From: Candidatus Sericytochromatia bacterium S15B-MN24 CBMW_12
Lineage (GTDB): Bacteria > Cyanobacteriota > Sericytochromatia > S15B-MN24 > UBA4093
Direction: 5' to 3'
DNA length: 64,000 nucleotides
Assembly: GCA_002083825.1 (NCBI GenBank)
Contig: DAZV01000030.1
Location: 119,821 to 183,820 of the forward strand
In this document: positions 36,570-44,021 of the stretch, in pieces
Position numbering within the stretch: position 1 is the stretch's first letter
Layout of the letters: each line of letters opens with the position of its first letter
The notes under the pieces: model-generated
Database searches by the model: none
What the model was told of the DNA's origin: nothing
What the model saw: the letters and a program-made list of their open reading frames with translations, nothing else
Made by a program: the position numbers and the translations under genes

Positions 36570-37697
36570 TTGAGCAAGCAAAAAGCCGTATTCGCCTTCG
36601 CCGCAGCCGCCTTGACGGCTCTCTCCCTTCCCCTCATGCCGGCGAACGCCGAGCCGGTCTCCGCCGAGAGCGCGGAGCCCGCGGTGGCGGCACCGGCCCC
36701 GGTCGCCGATTCCGCCCCGGTCGTCACTCCGGTCGCCGGAAACCTCGAAGTCCTGCCGGTCGAGGCGAGCCCCGCCGCTGCGGATCCTGCCTCTGCCAGC
36801 CTCTTGGCCGCTCCGGCTTCGGCCAGCCTCCTGGCGGCCCCCGCTTCGGCCAGCCTCCTGGCCGCTCCTGCCAGCCCGAGCGTCATCGCGGCCCCCGTGG
36901 CGCAAGCTACCGCCAGCGCCACGCCGGCTGCGGGCCCGTCCTTCTCGATGCCCAACGTGAAGCTGCCCTTCCCGCTGACGCTCTCCTATCGTCCCGAGAC
37001 GGGAACGATGGGCGGCACCGGCTTCGCGCCCGGGGTTCCGCTCATCGCGGGGGCGCCCGCGGCGCCCGCTCAGTTCAATCTCGCCTCCCAGACGGCCCAG
37101 GGATGGTCCGGAACCGCGGAGGTGGGGCTTCCCATCATCACGCTCGGCGCTCGGATGACCGGCTACGGTAGCGTCGGCTCCTTCGATCCGTCCATCAGCG
37201 CCGCGGACAGCAGCAATGCTCCCGCCGCGGATCAGCTCCCCTACTACTGGCCCGAGAGTGCCTGGTCCACCTACGTCAAGGTATTCGGCCTGCGCTTCGG
37301 CTACCTCAACGAACAGTTCAACCGCAACATCGGTGAGGGTGGGGCCATCGGGTCGTACATCGGCGGCCTGGATTCGGGCTTCAACATCCTGGGGCTCGTC
37401 GGCGTGGATTATCACCTGCTCGCCGGCTGGGGAGTCAACGGCCAGACCGTTGCCGGAACCACCACGGCCCACATCCCCACGGAACTCGACGCCAGCGTCT
37501 ACGCCAATCTCGGACCCATCAACCTGAGGGCCGGCTACGTCGCCCGGGAAACCTTCACCGGAGATCCGAGCACCTTCCTGGCTATCGTCACCGACCCCAT
37601 GTCCCTCGCGAACGATGCCGGGAAACGGGACACGGTCAACGCCACGCGCATGGGATCCTACATGGGCCCCTACTTCGGAGCGGGGTTCAGTTTCTAG
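36570..37697 (+). CDS. Secreted/envelope protein of unknown family (paralog A) with Ala/Ser-rich N-terminal repeats
   Basis: Signal peptide; shares WSTYxxxxGLRFGYLNExFxRxIGxxGAIGSxIxGLDxGF...GWGV.GQ...HIP with next gene. Confidence 0.75.
   Translation: MSKQKAVFAFAAAALTALSLPLMPANAEPVSAESAEPAVAAPAPVADSAPVVTPVAGNLEVLPVEASPAAADPASASLLAAPASASLLAAPASASLLAAPASPSVIAAPVAQATASATPAAGPSFSMPNVKLPFPLTLSYRPETGTMGGTGFAPGVPLIAGAPAAPAQFNLASQTAQGWSGTAEVGLPIITLGARMTGYGSVGSFDPSISAADSSNAPAADQLPYYWPESAWSTYVKVFGLRFGYLNEQFNRNIGEGGAIGSYIGGLDSGFNILGLVGVDYHLLAGWGVNGQTVAGTTTAHIPTELDASVYANLGPINLRAGYVARETFTGDPSTFLAIVTDPMSLANDAGKRDTVNATRMGSYMGPYFGAGFSF
36789..36896 (+). repeat. 27-bp in-frame tandem repeat, about 4 copies
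   Basis: (ASASLLAAP)x3 + ASPSVIAAP. Confidence 0.85.
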
Positions 37698-37713: not shown

Positions 37714-37819
37714 TTAGCGCCTGCGGCTGTTTCGTAAGGCAGCGAGGGATAGCCGTGACGTTGCCCCGATGCGATAGAGTCGTAGCCCTCGCTGGCCTGA
37801 AGAAACGACGTTTGCTCTA
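37714..37819. repeat. 106-bp repeat, left inverted copy
   Basis: ttagcgcctgcggctgtttcgtaaggcagcgaggg...gaagaaacgacgtttgctcta; reverse complement of 38841-38946 with one visible mismatch. Confidence 0.97.
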
Positions 37820-37916
37820 AAGATATATTACAATGTGAGGGCTTCCCATGAGGGGAGCCCTCTTCTGCTTGGACGTAAGCCCGTACGTTGCGCGATCAAA
37901 GAAAGATGGGTACGCC

Positions 37917-38843
37917 ATGACTCGAAACGCTTTCCGCGGCACCTTCCTGGCCGCGACTCTCGCCCTGATGGCCCCCGCAGTCCTGACGGCTCCGGAGGCG
38001 CTGGCTGCCTTCAGTCCGGCCGAGGATTCCCGACTCGCCCAGGCCCGCAGGCCGAGCCCCGCCCCGACCCTGCGCCCGGTGCCCACCCCGCTGCCTCCGG
38101 CTCAGGAACCCATCCGGCGCGGTACCGAACCCGTCCAGGTGACCGCCGTGACGGCACCCGAGGACAAGACCCCCATGGATCTCACGATCGGCCTGGAGTA
38201 CGAGTTCGGCAGCGCCACCTCGGGGGGCTTCGCAGCCAACGCCCAGTCGGTTCCGACCGCGATCACCAATGCCACCTCGGCCCTCAACGCCTGGTCGGGG
38301 CTGGCCGAGATCGGTCTGGGAGCCTTCGACCTCGGCGCGAAGTACACGAACTACATGGGAGTGCTGCCCCTCACCGTTGGTAACCCCGCAGGCGGCTTCC
38401 TCCCGTTCTATTGGCCTCAAGAAACTTGGAGCGCTTACGGTCGCATGGGTGCCCTGCGCCTGGGCTATCTCAACGAGTTCTTCGGGCGGGGCATCGGTTC
38501 GGACGGCGCGATCGGGTCGGTGATCCTGGGTCTTGACGGGGGATTCCCGCTGGTCGTCGACATGCTCGACATGGATTATAGCCTCACCGGCGGCTGGGGC
38601 GTCATCGGACAGGGGCCCGGCCACATCCCCGCTGAAGCCAAGGTAAGCTTGAGCGTCGTCCTCGGGCCGGTGAACCTGTCGGGTGGCTACGTGGGGCGGG
38701 CCTCCTTCACCGGGGAGCCGGGAACCTTCCTCACCGCGCTCACCAATCCGGCTCAATTGAGTACCGGGGATGCGGCCACGGTCAACCAGACCCGCCTGGG
38801 CACCTATCAGGGCCCGTTCGTCGGAGTGAGCATGGGCTTCTAG
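37917..38843 (+). CDS. Secreted/envelope protein of unknown family (paralog B)
   Basis: Signal peptide MTRNAFRGTFLAATLALMAPAVLTAPEALA; colinear motifs with paralog A; stop codon lies inside right repeat copy. Confidence 0.78.
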   Translation: MTRNAFRGTFLAATLALMAPAVLTAPEALAAFSPAEDSRLAQARRPSPAPTLRPVPTPLPPAQEPIRRGTEPVQVTAVTAPEDKTPMDLTIGLEYEFGSATSGGFAANAQSVPTAITNATSALNAWSGLAEIGLGAFDLGAKYTNYMGVLPLTVGNPAGGFLPFYWPQETWSAYGRMGALRLGYLNEFFGRGIGSDGAIGSVILGLDGGFPLVVDMLDMDYSLTGGWGVIGQGPGHIPAEAKVSLSVVLGPVNLSGGYVGRASFTGEPGTFLTALTNPAQLSTGDAATVNQTRLGTYQGPFVGVSMGF

Positions 38844-38946
38844 AGCAAACGTCGTTTCTTCAGGCCAGCGAGGGCTACGACTCTATCGCATCGGGGCAAC
38901 GTCACGGCTATCCCTCGCTGCCTTACGAAACAGCCGCGGGCGCTAA
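38841..38946. repeat. 106-bp repeat, right inverted copy
   Basis: tagagcaaacgtcgtttcttcaggccagcgaggg...ccctcgctgccttacgaaacagccgcgggcgctaa. Confidence 0.97.
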
Positions 38947-39111: not shown

Positions 39112-40914
39112 ATGGTCAAACAGTACTTGACGACGCTGGGTCTGGCTGCCACCTTGCTGGTCGGCGCGGTCCCGATGACGGCGACGGCCCAGGCCTTCAC
39201 CCCGGTGAGCGAATTCACGGACGTGGGTCCCAGTCACTGGGCTTACAACGCCATCAAGGCCATGGTCGAAAAGTATCAGATCATGGAGGGGTTCCCCGAC
39301 AGCACGTTCCGCGGTGAGCGCACCGTGAACCGCTATGAAATGGCAGCCTTGCTCTCCAAGGTCATGTCGCGGGTCGAGGAAATGATCGCCTCCGCCACCG
39401 GCGAGGTTCCAGCACCTCCGCGCCTTCGATCCGACATCTCTTCGGACGATCTTCGCGTGCTCGCGCGCCTGCAGCAGGAATTCCGGGACGAACTCGCGGT
39501 CCTGAAGGGCCGCTACGATACCTTCGACAACCGTCTCGGCGCGCTGGAGCGCCGGGTTCGCCTGGGCGGCTCGCTTCAGTTCCTTTATCGGACCTACATG
39601 GCTCAGCCGGGAACCAAGCAGAACGTCCAGGAATTCGACAACCTCCGGGTCCAGACCAACCTGACCCTGGCCTCGGAACTGGCTCCCAACATGGCGTTTC
39701 GCGGAGCGTATTCGATTTTCAACAACGGCGTTCAGAACTTTCAAAACGGCCATCAAGCCGTCGACGGGGGGCTGGGATCCTTGACCGGGGCCGATACGGC
39801 CACTCCGTTCTACGTTCGCCAGTCCTATTTTTCGTGGACCCCCGGAGCCCTCGGCCTCTACACGGGCGTGATGACCTTCAGAGATACCAGTCTCAAGGTC
39901 GGCGGCACCTTGCCCAATGCCTTCCAGTCGTCCGTCTGGCCGCAAAGCCAGTCGGGTTTCGGCTTCGTGGGAACGCCTCCGGTAGAGCCGACGACGGGTG
40001 GGCTTGTCCTGAGCGGCTACGGGGCAGGGGTGGCGGACACGCCCCAGGGGCGCGTGGGCTGGAACCCCGGCATCAACGTGGTGCAGGATCTTCTCGACCC
40101 CAACTCGGTGGATCCGATCAACTCGGGCGCGGCTCCGAGCGTCGTGCTCGACGCGTCCCTGGGTCCGGTGGACGTCGGCGTCGGCTACAACCACGGAACC
40201 CCCGGGGCTTCGACGGTAGGTGCGCTCGCGAACCTGCCGGATACCTTTCCGATCGTTGCGGGGCCCGTGGGATCAGGGTACTCCCTGCTCCGTCTCGCCA
40301 CCGATATGGGCCCAGCCCGGCTGGGGCTATATGGTCGGGCCGATAACACGGCTCTGGGCCGTTTGACCGGAGGCGCATCGACGGGAAAGGGCTGGGGAGC
40401 CACCTTGGACCTGGGGTCGGAGGCTCTGGGCCTACAACTGGGCTGGGCAGAGATGGATCGGACCTTCTCGACCACGAACTTGCCCTATTTTAACGAGGGT
40501 ACGATTGCCCTGGTGACCAACAACCTGTTCGGCTCGCTGGAGTTCGGGCTTGCGACCAAGTTCGGCAACGCGGGTGGACTCTCTCCCACGGCCAGCCCGC
40601 GTCTACCGGGACTCGGCTACAACTGGACGTCGACGGGGGGCTACGTGAGGTTCCCGGGTTTCTCGATCTTGCCGTCGATCACGCTGGCGGCCCAGCAGTC
40701 GGGCTCGGACGTGGGGTCGAAGAACTTCGGTTCGGGCCTCACGGCGATCGTGGGCTTCCAGCCGAACCCCGCGCTGCCGGTCGTCATGGTGCAATACGAT
40801 CAGGGGAAGTTCTACGGGACCTCGGAGGCTCCGACGGGAGACAACGCGTTGTTCGGGACTGCCAACAAGCAGTCGCATGATCAGGTGATCGTGGGGACCT
40901 CGGTGAGCTTCTAG
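39112..40914 (+). CDS. SLH-domain outer-membrane porin-like protein
   Basis: Signal peptide; SLH FTDVGPSHWAYNAIKAMVEKYQIMEGFPDSTFRGERTVNRYEMAALLSKVM; long beta-rich C-terminal region ending in aromatic-type VGTSVSF. Confidence 0.9.
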   Translation: MVKQYLTTLGLAATLLVGAVPMTATAQAFTPVSEFTDVGPSHWAYNAIKAMVEKYQIMEGFPDSTFRGERTVNRYEMAALLSKVMSRVEEMIASATGEVPAPPRLRSDISSDDLRVLARLQQEFRDELAVLKGRYDTFDNRLGALERRVRLGGSLQFLYRTYMAQPGTKQNVQEFDNLRVQTNLTLASELAPNMAFRGAYSIFNNGVQNFQNGHQAVDGGLGSLTGADTATPFYVRQSYFSWTPGALGLYTGVMTFRDTSLKVGGTLPNAFQSSVWPQSQSGFGFVGTPPVEPTTGGLVLSGYGAGVADTPQGRVGWNPGINVVQDLLDPNSVDPINSGAAPSVVLDASLGPVDVGVGYNHGTPGASTVGALANLPDTFPIVAGPVGSGYSLLRLATDMGPARLGLYGRADNTALGRLTGGASTGKGWGATLDLGSEALGLQLGWAEMDRTFSTTNLPYFNEGTIALVTNNLFGSLEFGLATKFGNAGGLSPTASPRLPGLGYNWTSTGGYVRFPGFSILPSITLAAQQSGSDVGSKNFGSGLTAIVGFQPNPALPVVMVQYDQGKFYGTSEAPTGDNALFGTANKQSHDQVIVGTSVSF

Positions 40915-41050: not shown

Positions 41051-43036
41051 ATGCGGGATGATCGAGAACCGGGAAACGGGCCGGGAAAAGTGCCTGGAAA
41101 AGGGTCGGGAAACGGGTCGGGAAACGGGTCGGGAATAAAGCACGGGCGAGGTTCTGGTTTCAAGGGGGCTGTTTTTTCCTGGCGAGGGGGCTTGATTCTG
41201 GGGATTCTCGCGCTTTCGGCGGCGGACAGCCTGCTTGGTCGGTCGTTCGGGTTGGGTCAGGGTCTCGGTGGCGTCGCGTTCGGTCAGGCCGATGCGGGTG
41301 AGGAGGCCTTGCGTGCCCCGGGTCCCATCTTCGGGATGCAGGCCGTGCCCAAGTTCGACGAGCGTCTCGGCAAGGGATCTTGGAGCGGGTCGCGGGATCG
41401 CGGCATGGAGATGCACCGGGACCTGGGGGTGCGTCTGAGCCGGGAAGGGATGATCTGGCGTCATTATCAGCCGGGTCCCGACGGCCGGGTTCCGCATCAG
41501 GGGGACTTCGACGATGTGGTCGCGCGCTTGGGCGCGGCGGGGATCTCCCTTCAGTTCATGGTGACGGAGACGCCGTTCTGGGCGTCCTCGGCAGCGGGCA
41601 AGCGTCCGGCGGATCCGGTTTCGTATCGCCAGGCCCCCCCCGAGGGCCTTTACCTCCCGATCTTCGCGGACGGCAGCGATGTTCCGGGCCCTGGCAAGCG
41701 TATCAATCCTCATCATCCCTGGGCCTCCTTCCTCGAGACGGTCGTGAGACGCTACGCGGGTCAGGTTCGCTACTGGCAGTGCTGGAACGAGCCGGACTAC
41801 CCCGAGGGCGTACTGGGCGCGGCCCCGGGCGATCCGCGGCGATCCTGGCAGGGCAGCGTGAAGGATTACGTCCGCCTGCTCGCGGTCATGCACACGGTCG
41901 TCAAGTGGATCGATCCCCAGGCCCAGGTGGTGACGGGGGGCCTGGGCTACGCGGACTACCTGCAGGCGATGATCGACCACGGAGCCGGCCCTTACTTCGA
42001 CTTGCTGGATTTTCATGCTTACGGGTGGCCGGGATCCGACGAGGCGCTCAGGGCCTTCCTGTCGGTTCACCAGGCCATGCGGCAGGTCCTGGAGCGCAAC
42101 CGTCTCGGCCGGAAGGGCATGCTCTGCTCGGAGACCGGGTACAGCGCCACGGAGCCCGATCACCAGGCCGACACCATCGTCAAGCTCTACGCCACGACCT
42201 TGGCGCTAGGGCTCGAAGGAACGGTCTACTACAGCAACACCAACCCCAGCTGGCGGCAGATGGGGCTGGTGGACTGGCGCAGCCTGACGCAGCGCACGAT
42301 GGGCTACTGGGCTTACAAGAATACCAGCGCGGCGCTCGACGGCATGCGATTCGTCTCGAAGCTGCCGCTGCCGCCTCAGGTGGTGGGTTACCTCTTTGCG
42401 GATTCCGCTCGCCGGCGCGAGGTCGCCGTGCTCTGGGCTCCCTATCGATCGCCCGAGGAGGCATGGCCTTTGCGCTGGAATCGCGCGGGCGACTGGACCC
42501 GCGTCACGCCGGAGGGAAACGTTCAGCCCCTGGCGCCGGGAGTTCCTTTGCGCCTGCATGGCCGCCCCGTCATCCTCGATTCCGATGGCCGAGGGCGCTA
42601 TTCCCCGCTGACGGCCAATCCCTCGATCCCCCGGAACGGCTTGGCCGTCGTTTCGGTCCGGGCCAGCGGGAGCCGCGCCGACGGCTTCCATGAGCCGGAT
42701 CTCGCCGTGGACGGGGATACCGACTCCCAGTGGATTTCCGGGGGGGCGCGCGAGGCGACCGTCTCCTTCGTCGTGGAGCTCGCCGAGCGATCGCTCATCC
42801 GCGAGCTTCGACTCAAGACCGGCCCCCTCCACGGCGCCACCATCGACCTCGAAGTCTCCGACGACGGCCGCTCCTGGCGCAAGGTTCGCGAGCGCGTCCG
42901 CATCGACGGTTGGAAGCTGGAGCGTTTGGCGCTACCCCTCCCGACCGAGGCGCGCTGGATTCGCCTGCTCTGGCGCAATGCCCCTGATCGCCGCCTCCCA
43001 GGGCTCTCGATCTTCGAGTTAGAGGTCCATGACTAG
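41051..43036 (+). CDS. Secreted glycoside hydrolase (GH39/GH5-like TIM barrel) with C-terminal F5/8 type C (discoidin) domain
   Basis: QVRYWQCWNEPDYPEG, LLDFHAYGWP, MLCSETGYSATEPDHQ; C-terminal SRADGFHEPDLAVDGDTDSQWISG..ELAERSLIRELRL. Confidence 0.78.
   Translation: MRDDREPGNGPGKVPGKGSGNGSGNGSGIKHGRGSGFKGAVFSWRGGLILGILALSAADSLLGRSFGLGQGLGGVAFGQADAGEEALRAPGPIFGMQAVPKFDERLGKGSWSGSRDRGMEMHRDLGVRLSREGMIWRHYQPGPDGRVPHQGDFDDVVARLGAAGISLQFMVTETPFWASSAAGKRPADPVSYRQAPPEGLYLPIFADGSDVPGPGKRINPHHPWASFLETVVRRYAGQVRYWQCWNEPDYPEGVLGAAPGDPRRSWQGSVKDYVRLLAVMHTVVKWIDPQAQVVTGGLGYADYLQAMIDHGAGPYFDLLDFHAYGWPGSDEALRAFLSVHQAMRQVLERNRLGRKGMLCSETGYSATEPDHQADTIVKLYATTLALGLEGTVYYSNTNPSWRQMGLVDWRSLTQRTMGYWAYKNTSAALDGMRFVSKLPLPPQVVGYLFADSARRREVAVLWAPYRSPEEAWPLRWNRAGDWTRVTPEGNVQPLAPGVPLRLHGRPVILDSDGRGRYSPLTANPSIPRNGLAVVSVRASGSRADGFHEPDLAVDGDTDSQWISGGAREATVSFVVELAERSLIRELRLKTGPLHGATIDLEVSDDGRSWRKVRERVRIDGWKLERLALPLPTEARWIRLLWRNAPDRRLPGLSIFELEVHD
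41069..41140 (+). repeat. 12-bp minisatellite, 6 units, in the glycoside hydrolase N-terminus
   Basis: ccgggaaacggg/ccgggaaaagtg/cctggaaaaggg/tcgggaaacggg/tcgggaaacggg/tcgggaataaag. Confidence 0.9.
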
Positions 43037-43135: not shown

Positions 43136-43918
43136 TTGCGGATGATCGGCGAGCCTCCCTACCTCTCGACACTTCCTCTCTACCATGCCCTCCGGGCGAC
43201 GGGACTCGAGCCTGATTTCCAGATTTCGCGCGCCGGCATCTCCCACCTTTCCGAGCGCCTGGTCAACGGTACGCTCGATGCAGGCCCGATCTCCCTCATC
43301 TCGTACCTGAAGCATCGCGACAAGCTCGACCTGATCCCCCACATGGCGCTCAGCTCCATGGGAGCCGGCGGCTCCGGCGTCCTGGTGAGCACCAAGCCCA
43401 TCGGGACCGCCTCCGAGCTCGAGGTGGCCATTCCCAGCCAGACGGCCGGTACCGCTTACCTCCTGCGCTGGCTTTTCTCCGAGATGTTCGGCTACGAACC
43501 CATTCTGGTGGAGCGCACCGGAAATCTCGAGCACATGCTGCAAGAACATGGGGCCGCGCTGCTCTTCGAAGACCAGGCCCTGAGCGCGCGCTACCGCTCT
43601 CCCAACCTGCACGTCTGGGACCTCGGGACCGCCTGGTGGCAATGCACCAACACCCCGCTCCTCTACATGGTCTGGGTCGTTCGCAAGGAAGTTCCCGAGG
43701 CCGAAAGAACGGCGCTGCTCGCGCGATTCGCCGAGGCCAAGCGCAGCGTGGGGAGCTTCAAGGCTCCCATCATGCGCGAGGCCCAAGAGCAGTCGGGTTA
43801 TCCGGAGGATTACCTCGAGAACTTCTGGTCCCGCTTCAACTACGACTTCACTCCCGCTCACCAGACGAGCCTTCGCCTCTTCGAGCAGTACGTCTACGCG
43901 CTGGATCCTGCGCGTTAG
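43136..43918 (+). CDS. mqnA: MqnA-like menaquinone biosynthesis protein (chorismate dehydratase family)
   Basis: PYLSTLPLYHAL, LVNGTLDAGPISLISYLKHRDKLDLIPHMALSSMGAGGSGVLVS. Confidence 0.7.
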   Translation: MRMIGEPPYLSTLPLYHALRATGLEPDFQISRAGISHLSERLVNGTLDAGPISLISYLKHRDKLDLIPHMALSSMGAGGSGVLVSTKPIGTASELEVAIPSQTAGTAYLLRWLFSEMFGYEPILVERTGNLEHMLQEHGAALLFEDQALSARYRSPNLHVWDLGTAWWQCTNTPLLYMVWVVRKEVPEAERTALLARFAEAKRSVGSFKAPIMREAQEQSGYPEDYLENFWSRFNYDFTPAHQTSLRLFEQYVYALDPAR

Positions 43919-43990
43919 AGCAAAGCTCGACGGCGTTCCCTCGCTGGCTTAATCAACAGCCGCCGGCGCTACTCAACAGCCGCCGGCGCT
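43916..43990. repeat. Shortened third copy of the 106-bp repeat plus a 17-bp tandem duplication
   Basis: tagagcaaa...ccctcgctggcttaatcaacagccgccggcgct; caacagccgccggcgct twice (43954, 43974). Confidence 0.75.
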
Positions 43991-44021
43991 GGGTCGTGAA
44001 GGCGTGAGCTTCCCGGTGCGC

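Follow-up and report, generated by a model that had tools for sequence, protein, structure and literature searches.

Two described kinds of bacterial MITE, RUP and Correia/NEMIS, are nearest to the element reported here. RUP is non-coding, has a length of about 107 bp, and is present in roughly 108-110 intergenic copies per genome; it has TA termini and a TA-containing target, and its mobilization by IS630-Spn1 has been proposed (PMC2229807, PMC3049150). The Correia/NEMIS elements of Neisseria also use TA targets and come in forms of ~107 and ~155 bp with an internal difference of 50 bp (PMC2229807, PMC2649163). The terminal inverted repeats of Correia elements are 24 bp (PMC2229807), and the copies are reported to lie mostly upstream of genes and to have promoter and IHF functions (PMC10969869). 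A further MITE, BrickBuilt of Porphyromonas gingivalis, carries a 23 bp tandem minisatellite (PMC4596501). Many known bacterial MITEs are without an identified partner (PMC2229807).

Here, we present an analysis of a long inverted repeat in a 64-kb window (the whole stretch of DNA that was analyzed, positions 1-64000), which is part of a 184-kb contig in a 61-contig draft genome of 3.9 Mb. We found that the inverted repeat is not specific to this locus; rather, its arms are two copies, in opposite orientations, of a dispersed non-coding element. The locus is an ordinary by-product of what is very likely a new MITE family, which has an unusual and measurable habit of sitting in stop codons.

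Results

The sequence-only reading of the window had described a near-perfect inverted repeat around a gene for a secreted protein, and repeat finding confirmed that this repeat is real. The arms are located at 37714-37819 and 38841-38946 and are 1021 nt apart; 105 of their 106 bases (99%) are complementary, the single mismatch lies at 37722 (CCTGCGG versus CCCGCGG), and the right arm begins, as had been noticed, on the TAG stop codon (38841-38843) of the enclosed gene. Biologically, the repeat unit measures 105 bp (37715-37819 and 38841-38945); the 106th pair (37714 T and 38946 A) is flanking sequence that matches by chance, and the likeness ends there on both sides. Gene A (36570-37697, forward strand), which encodes a secreted protein with a C-terminal Phe and no Pfam match, precedes the left arm. 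Its paralog, gene B (37917-38843, forward strand; 42% identity), for which the start codon was assigned from a signal-peptide-like N terminus, lies between the arms. The neighboring gene for an SLH-domain outer-membrane-type protein (39112-40914, forward strand) served as a synteny anchor. The N-terminal linker of protein A contains ASASLLAAP-type repeats, which are encoded by a 27-bp tandem repeat (36795-36868), and the ORF after the SLH gene starts with 5.6 tandem copies of the 12-bp unit CCGGGAAACGGG (41069-41135). The cyanobacterial HIP1 palindrome GCGATCGC occurs 23 times in the window versus a mean of 4.7 in shuffles, an abundance that would fit a genome of the cyanobacterial phylum; two of its copies are 39 bp apart within the polyprenyl synthetase gene.

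Both arms are 105-bp long forms of the subtype that we refer to as subtype A. Copy 1 (37715-37819, forward strand, both flanking TAs included) sits between the stop codon of gene A and an intrinsic-terminator-like hairpin just beyond the copy (37837-37862, forward strand), which is probably that of gene A; the empty site of copy 1 reads TTAT-TA-AAGA. Copy 2 (38841-38945, reverse strand) has the opposite orientation. The TAG stop codon of gene B consists of TA and the first G of copy 2 and is immediately preceded by the codon for the C-terminal Phe, a residue common to protein B, paralog A, and the homolog in the sister genus. The rejoined empty site of copy 2 reads GGC TTC TAA AGG, and the original stop codon of gene B was probably TAA. 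Copy 1 would have landed in the 3' UTR of gene A and copy 2 in the stop codon of gene B, and it is because the two copies inserted in opposite orientations that an inverted repeat is seen. The window holds a third copy (43916-43991, reverse strand), which is a 76-bp two-unit form with an outer end that has decayed to CAGCGCC; a gene for menaquinone biosynthesis (43142-43918; PF02621) ends in a TAG stop codon formed by the TA plus G of this copy.

Using BLAST with one arm as the query against its own genome, we found matches at at least 46 places, many of them covering only the first 40-47 bases of the arm; the 105-bp arm recurs genome-wide at E values of ~1e-46, far past chance. In these matches, subtype A has at least nine copies with 97-100% identity to the arm, and a second full-length subtype, subtype B, has ~75% identity to it. 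A left-end pattern (26-mer, at most 2 mismatches) gave 101 matches versus 0 in the reversed-pattern control, and a right-end pattern (14-mer, at most 1 mismatch) gave 66 matches versus 1+1 in the control. Merging the searches yielded 80 clusters, corresponding to ~80 sites in the 3.9-Mb genome, so that other copies of the arm do exist. All 80 clusters were taken with 600-bp flanks and aligned on the element ends, and the catalogue comprises these searches and 80 short stretches.

A full copy has the form TA-GCGCC(A/C/G/T)GCGGCTGTTTCGTAAGGCAGCGAG...CCTGAAGAAACGAGCTTTGCTC-TA, and TA bounds nearly all intact copies on both sides (TA-GCGCC...GCTC-TA). The ends of the 105-bp copy pair as an imperfect terminal inverted repeat of ~35-40 bp (in copy 1, 37715-37755 on the left, TAGCGCCTGCGGCTGTTTCGTAAGGCAGCGAGGGATAG, and 37781-37819 on the right, both given on the forward strand), and 0 of 2000 shuffles aligned as well; the terminal inverted repeats are weak in the short forms and clearer in a copy from the sister genus. 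Across the 80 clusters, element sizes range from 55 to 201 bp and are modular (56/58, 76/78, 105, and 125 bp), with 28 copies in the 55-60 bp class, 18 in the 76-79 bp class, and 16 in the 100-106 bp class in addition to composites. A size step of 20 bp corresponds to a repeat of the terminal unit TAGCGCCRGCGGCTGTTGAT, of which up to four occur in tandem, while copies that differ by ~47 bp either contain or lack the hairpin's inner half. Internal gains of 20 bp together with the loss of ~47 bp would generate these modular forms. Several copies are arranged head to tail with one TA common to both. We also noted a copy with four tandem 20-bp terminal units (L134; C31:54966-55081), in which the 20-bp increments could result from slippage or from nested insertion at the internal GAT-TA-AGG followed by deletion. 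In two other clusters (L127, C27:16352-16552; L170, C54:114589-114730), copies are fused via an unusual junction (...AAACGACATGTAAAACGCGGCTG...) with TAAAACGCGG in place of the normal end, which may be a second, related end type.

With the element and one TA removed, the rejoined site is YTAR in 66 of the 74 two-ended copies. Of the 75 right flanks, 54 have G at +3 and 49 have A at +4. The motif RNGA is found in 38 of these 75 flanks versus 15 of 218 background YTAR contexts (Fisher p = 2e-15), and in only 6 of 79 left flanks. This polar RNGA signal was found in every gene-context class, so that stop-codon context does not account for it. TA is present on both sides of the element, a pattern in which, from this genome alone, TA duplication and conserved ends look alike.

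To describe where the insertions lie (the rejoined sites) relative to genes, a gene caller based on codon usage was trained with the window and applied alike to these sites and to a background of all YTAR sites in the element-free 64-kb window with predicted genes, with tandem sites counted once. Stop codons, intergenic DNA, and the inside of genes account for 42, 28, and 4 of the 74 copies, respectively, versus 18, 41, and 43 of the 102 background sites. Thus, insertions are underrepresented inside genes (p = 1e-8), a depletion that selection would be expected to cause, and stop codons are enriched relative to intergenic sites (p = 0.0013); a looser background had given 42/74 versus 37/106 and is superseded by the matched one. 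The rejoined stop codons are TAA in 19 cases and TAG in 31. The orientation of the copies relative to the genes is unbiased, with 18 one way, 16 the other way, and 8 shared. Because both ends have G as the first base after TA, insertion into TAA or TAG always recreates TAG in either orientation, and this property also accounts for the arm that starts on the TAG of paralog B. Separately, we observed copies at overlaps of two convergent genes that have a CTAG, CTAA, or TTAA in common (L131, L109, L113, L120, and L164); there, the copy apparently serves as the stop codon of both genes.

For the transposase domains DDE_3, Y1_Tnp, and DDE_Tnp_1, the draft genome gave one fragment, one gene, and five matches, respectively, and a transposase gene with the family ends was not found among these loci. 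The DDE_3 fragment, which is the only IS630-type match, is a 154-aa open frame. With family ends absent, the IS630-type and DDE_Tnp_1 loci were rejected as parents. We also considered the solo left ends as ends of autonomous elements and found no right end in 3-4 kb stretches at C1, C35, and C14. The autonomous partner may have been lost, be unassembled, or belong to another family. The Y1 transposase-domain protein (L094; C13:4072-4437) is the single one of its kind and has a long N-terminal extension; no family copies lie near its gene.

In the sister genus (one other genome, same family), we found a diverged 105-bp copy with 72% identity to the subtype-B consensus and a second, right-truncated copy; the two are 80% alike. 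Both lie exactly at stop codons, namely those of an alpha-amylase gene (PF00128) and of recG, and therefore the TA ends and the stop-codon seat hold in a second lineage. These copies were missed by the subtype-A query alone and found by the subtype-B consensus, which detected the element in the sister genus only among the 17 other genomes of the class. Searches of 38 further genomes from the phylum with the left-end pattern or the subtype-A arm detected no member of the family. IMG/VR viral contigs and plasmids gave 0 matches each, and GTDB contigs gave only two chance-level 24-mers. The sister genus has a single A/B homolog between a polyprenyl synthetase gene and the SLH-protein gene, which was recognized by eye from its reading frame, and there is no element in this place.

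Discussion

Based on the ends, the target, and the distribution of the copies, we consider it very likely that the element is a MITE family, like RUP or the Correia elements, that is moved in trans by a putative transposase. A DDE-type transposase acting in trans would cut at the imperfect terminal repeats and insert the element into a YTAR site, preferably YTA-RNGA, with duplication of the TA; the boundaries are directly visible in the copies, while this chemistry is what we infer. Insertion into TAA or TAG would regenerate TAG either way and leave the protein unchanged, and selection against insertions within genes would concentrate the surviving copies in stop codons and intergenic DNA. The polar YTA-RNGA target is not expected of a plain TA-duplicating enzyme of the IS630/mariner type and counts against this reading. 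It is conceivable, and in our view rather unlikely, that the recombinase itself recognizes the polar YTA-RNGA site and that the ends are built to rebuild TAG, which would amount to a stop-codon safe-harbor adaptation in two genera.

The element shares several features with REP/REPIN-type elements, which would be mobilized by a single-copy Y1 (RAYT) transposase: like these, it is a small, extragenic, hairpin-forming repeat that is found at ~80 loci and in tandem and inverted combinations, and the genome does contain one Y1_Tnp gene. However, this sole Y1 gene is not flanked by family copies; the ends and the target are symmetric about TA with YTAR as the rejoined site, unlike the tetranucleotide-plus-hairpin ends of REP; and the youngest subtype (GACGTTTGCTC) lacks an intact terminal GAGC-TTT-GCTC hairpin. 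We regard a REP/REPIN origin as improbable.

Similarly improbable is that the element is maintained by selection for a structural or RNA function at the 3' ends of genes, such as that of a terminator or RNA stabilizer, and is not a selfish mobile element. While 57% of the copies occupy stop codons and the fold of the long form is a long hairpin, there is no Rfam match at the arms in the searched window, the fold z-scores are only -1.8 and -1.1 on the two strands, the short forms have no common fold, and there is no U-run. Moreover, the copies have no orientation bias relative to genes, and among the 17 other genomes of the class that were searched, a single one contains the element. The stem differs between subtypes A and B on both sides, at columns 33/74 and 59/69; as these changes represent a single subtype divergence and the z-scores of the fold are weak, we do not claim a selected RNA. 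An RNA gene or riboswitch was rejected based on the lack of an Rfam match at the arms, the weak z-scores, and the lack of a shared fold among the short forms. An attC/integron cassette was rejected because, as judged by eye, the end sequences have no recombination-site motif.

The sequence-only reading had raised the idea of a RecA-dependent inversion of 37820-38840. Such an inversion is physically possible: in principle, arms of 105 bp with 99% identity, inverted and 1 kb apart, have the length, identity, and spacing that suffice for RecA recombination. Because both arms present the same end to gene B, the gene would keep its TAG stop codon after a flip. Nevertheless, that recombination between the arms serves as a switch for turning gene B on and off appears very improbable. 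Among the ORFs read by eye, no recombinase gene was recognized between or beside the arms; the arms stem from a genome-wide family that is placed without regard to gene B; and genes A and B point in the same direction as the SLH gene, which also holds for the single sister-genus homolog.

The proposal that the arms and gene B moved together as a repeat-bounded cassette to a place beside paralog A is hardly credible, although near-identical inverted arms flank gene B and the outer ends are both GCGCC ends flanked by TA. The arms occur singly at ~80 other sites, and the two-ended copies elsewhere are insertions of ~55-200 bp that stand by themselves. A separate empty site bounded by TA exists for each arm, and identity is 99% between the arms versus 42% between A and B. 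In the sister genus, a homologous gene fills the same interval between the same neighbors without the element, and copy 2 occupies the native stop codon of gene B and leaves the conserved C-terminal Phe intact. What stands of this proposal is that the arms are copies of a mobile element. The contrast between 99% and 42% argues that the A/B duplication is far older than the arms. Altogether, two independent late insertions of the MITE account for everything seen at the locus, and moving gene B as a cassette is unnecessary.

One simple property, i.e. ends that have a G first after the TA, explains why an arm of the inverted repeat begins on a stop codon. Such ends allow a transposon to insert in a gene's final codon at no cost. 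Should this hold generally, stop codons would represent a quantifiable safe harbor for TA-targeting MITEs, which is testable in the RUP and Correia data. For annotation, our findings imply that repeats beginning on a TAG stop codon can be transposons; in this genome, dozens of stop codons are partly transposon-supplied. In the searchable literature, outside which most subscription papers lie, we came across no description of a MITE with its copies concentrated at stop codons, and the novelty of this habit is provisional to that extent.

The family has the traits of a MITE in that it is short and non-coding and has many dispersed copies and terminal inverted repeats. It resembles RUP in approximate size, copy number, TA termini and target, and non-coding nature; this likeness is one of kind. 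The IS630/Tc1-mariner trait of RUP-like elements, TA at both termini and in the target, is present here, while the only IS630-type match in the draft genome does not carry the family ends. For RUP, IS630-Spn1 is the proposed mobilizing IS, whereas no matching autonomous IS was found here. Further differences from RUP are the polar YTA-RNGA target, the concentration in stop codons, and the internal 20-bp tandem units. The last are comparable to the 23-bp minisatellite of BrickBuilt; however, BrickBuilt has target site duplications that are variable or absent, no TA rule, and another location pattern. The two size classes of Correia/NEMIS resemble the 58 and 105 bp forms of the family described here. 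The Correia elements differ in their terminal inverted repeats, which are 24 bp versus the imperfect 35-40 bp here, and in their location, which is mostly upstream of genes, whereas the copies described here lie at the 3' ends of genes.
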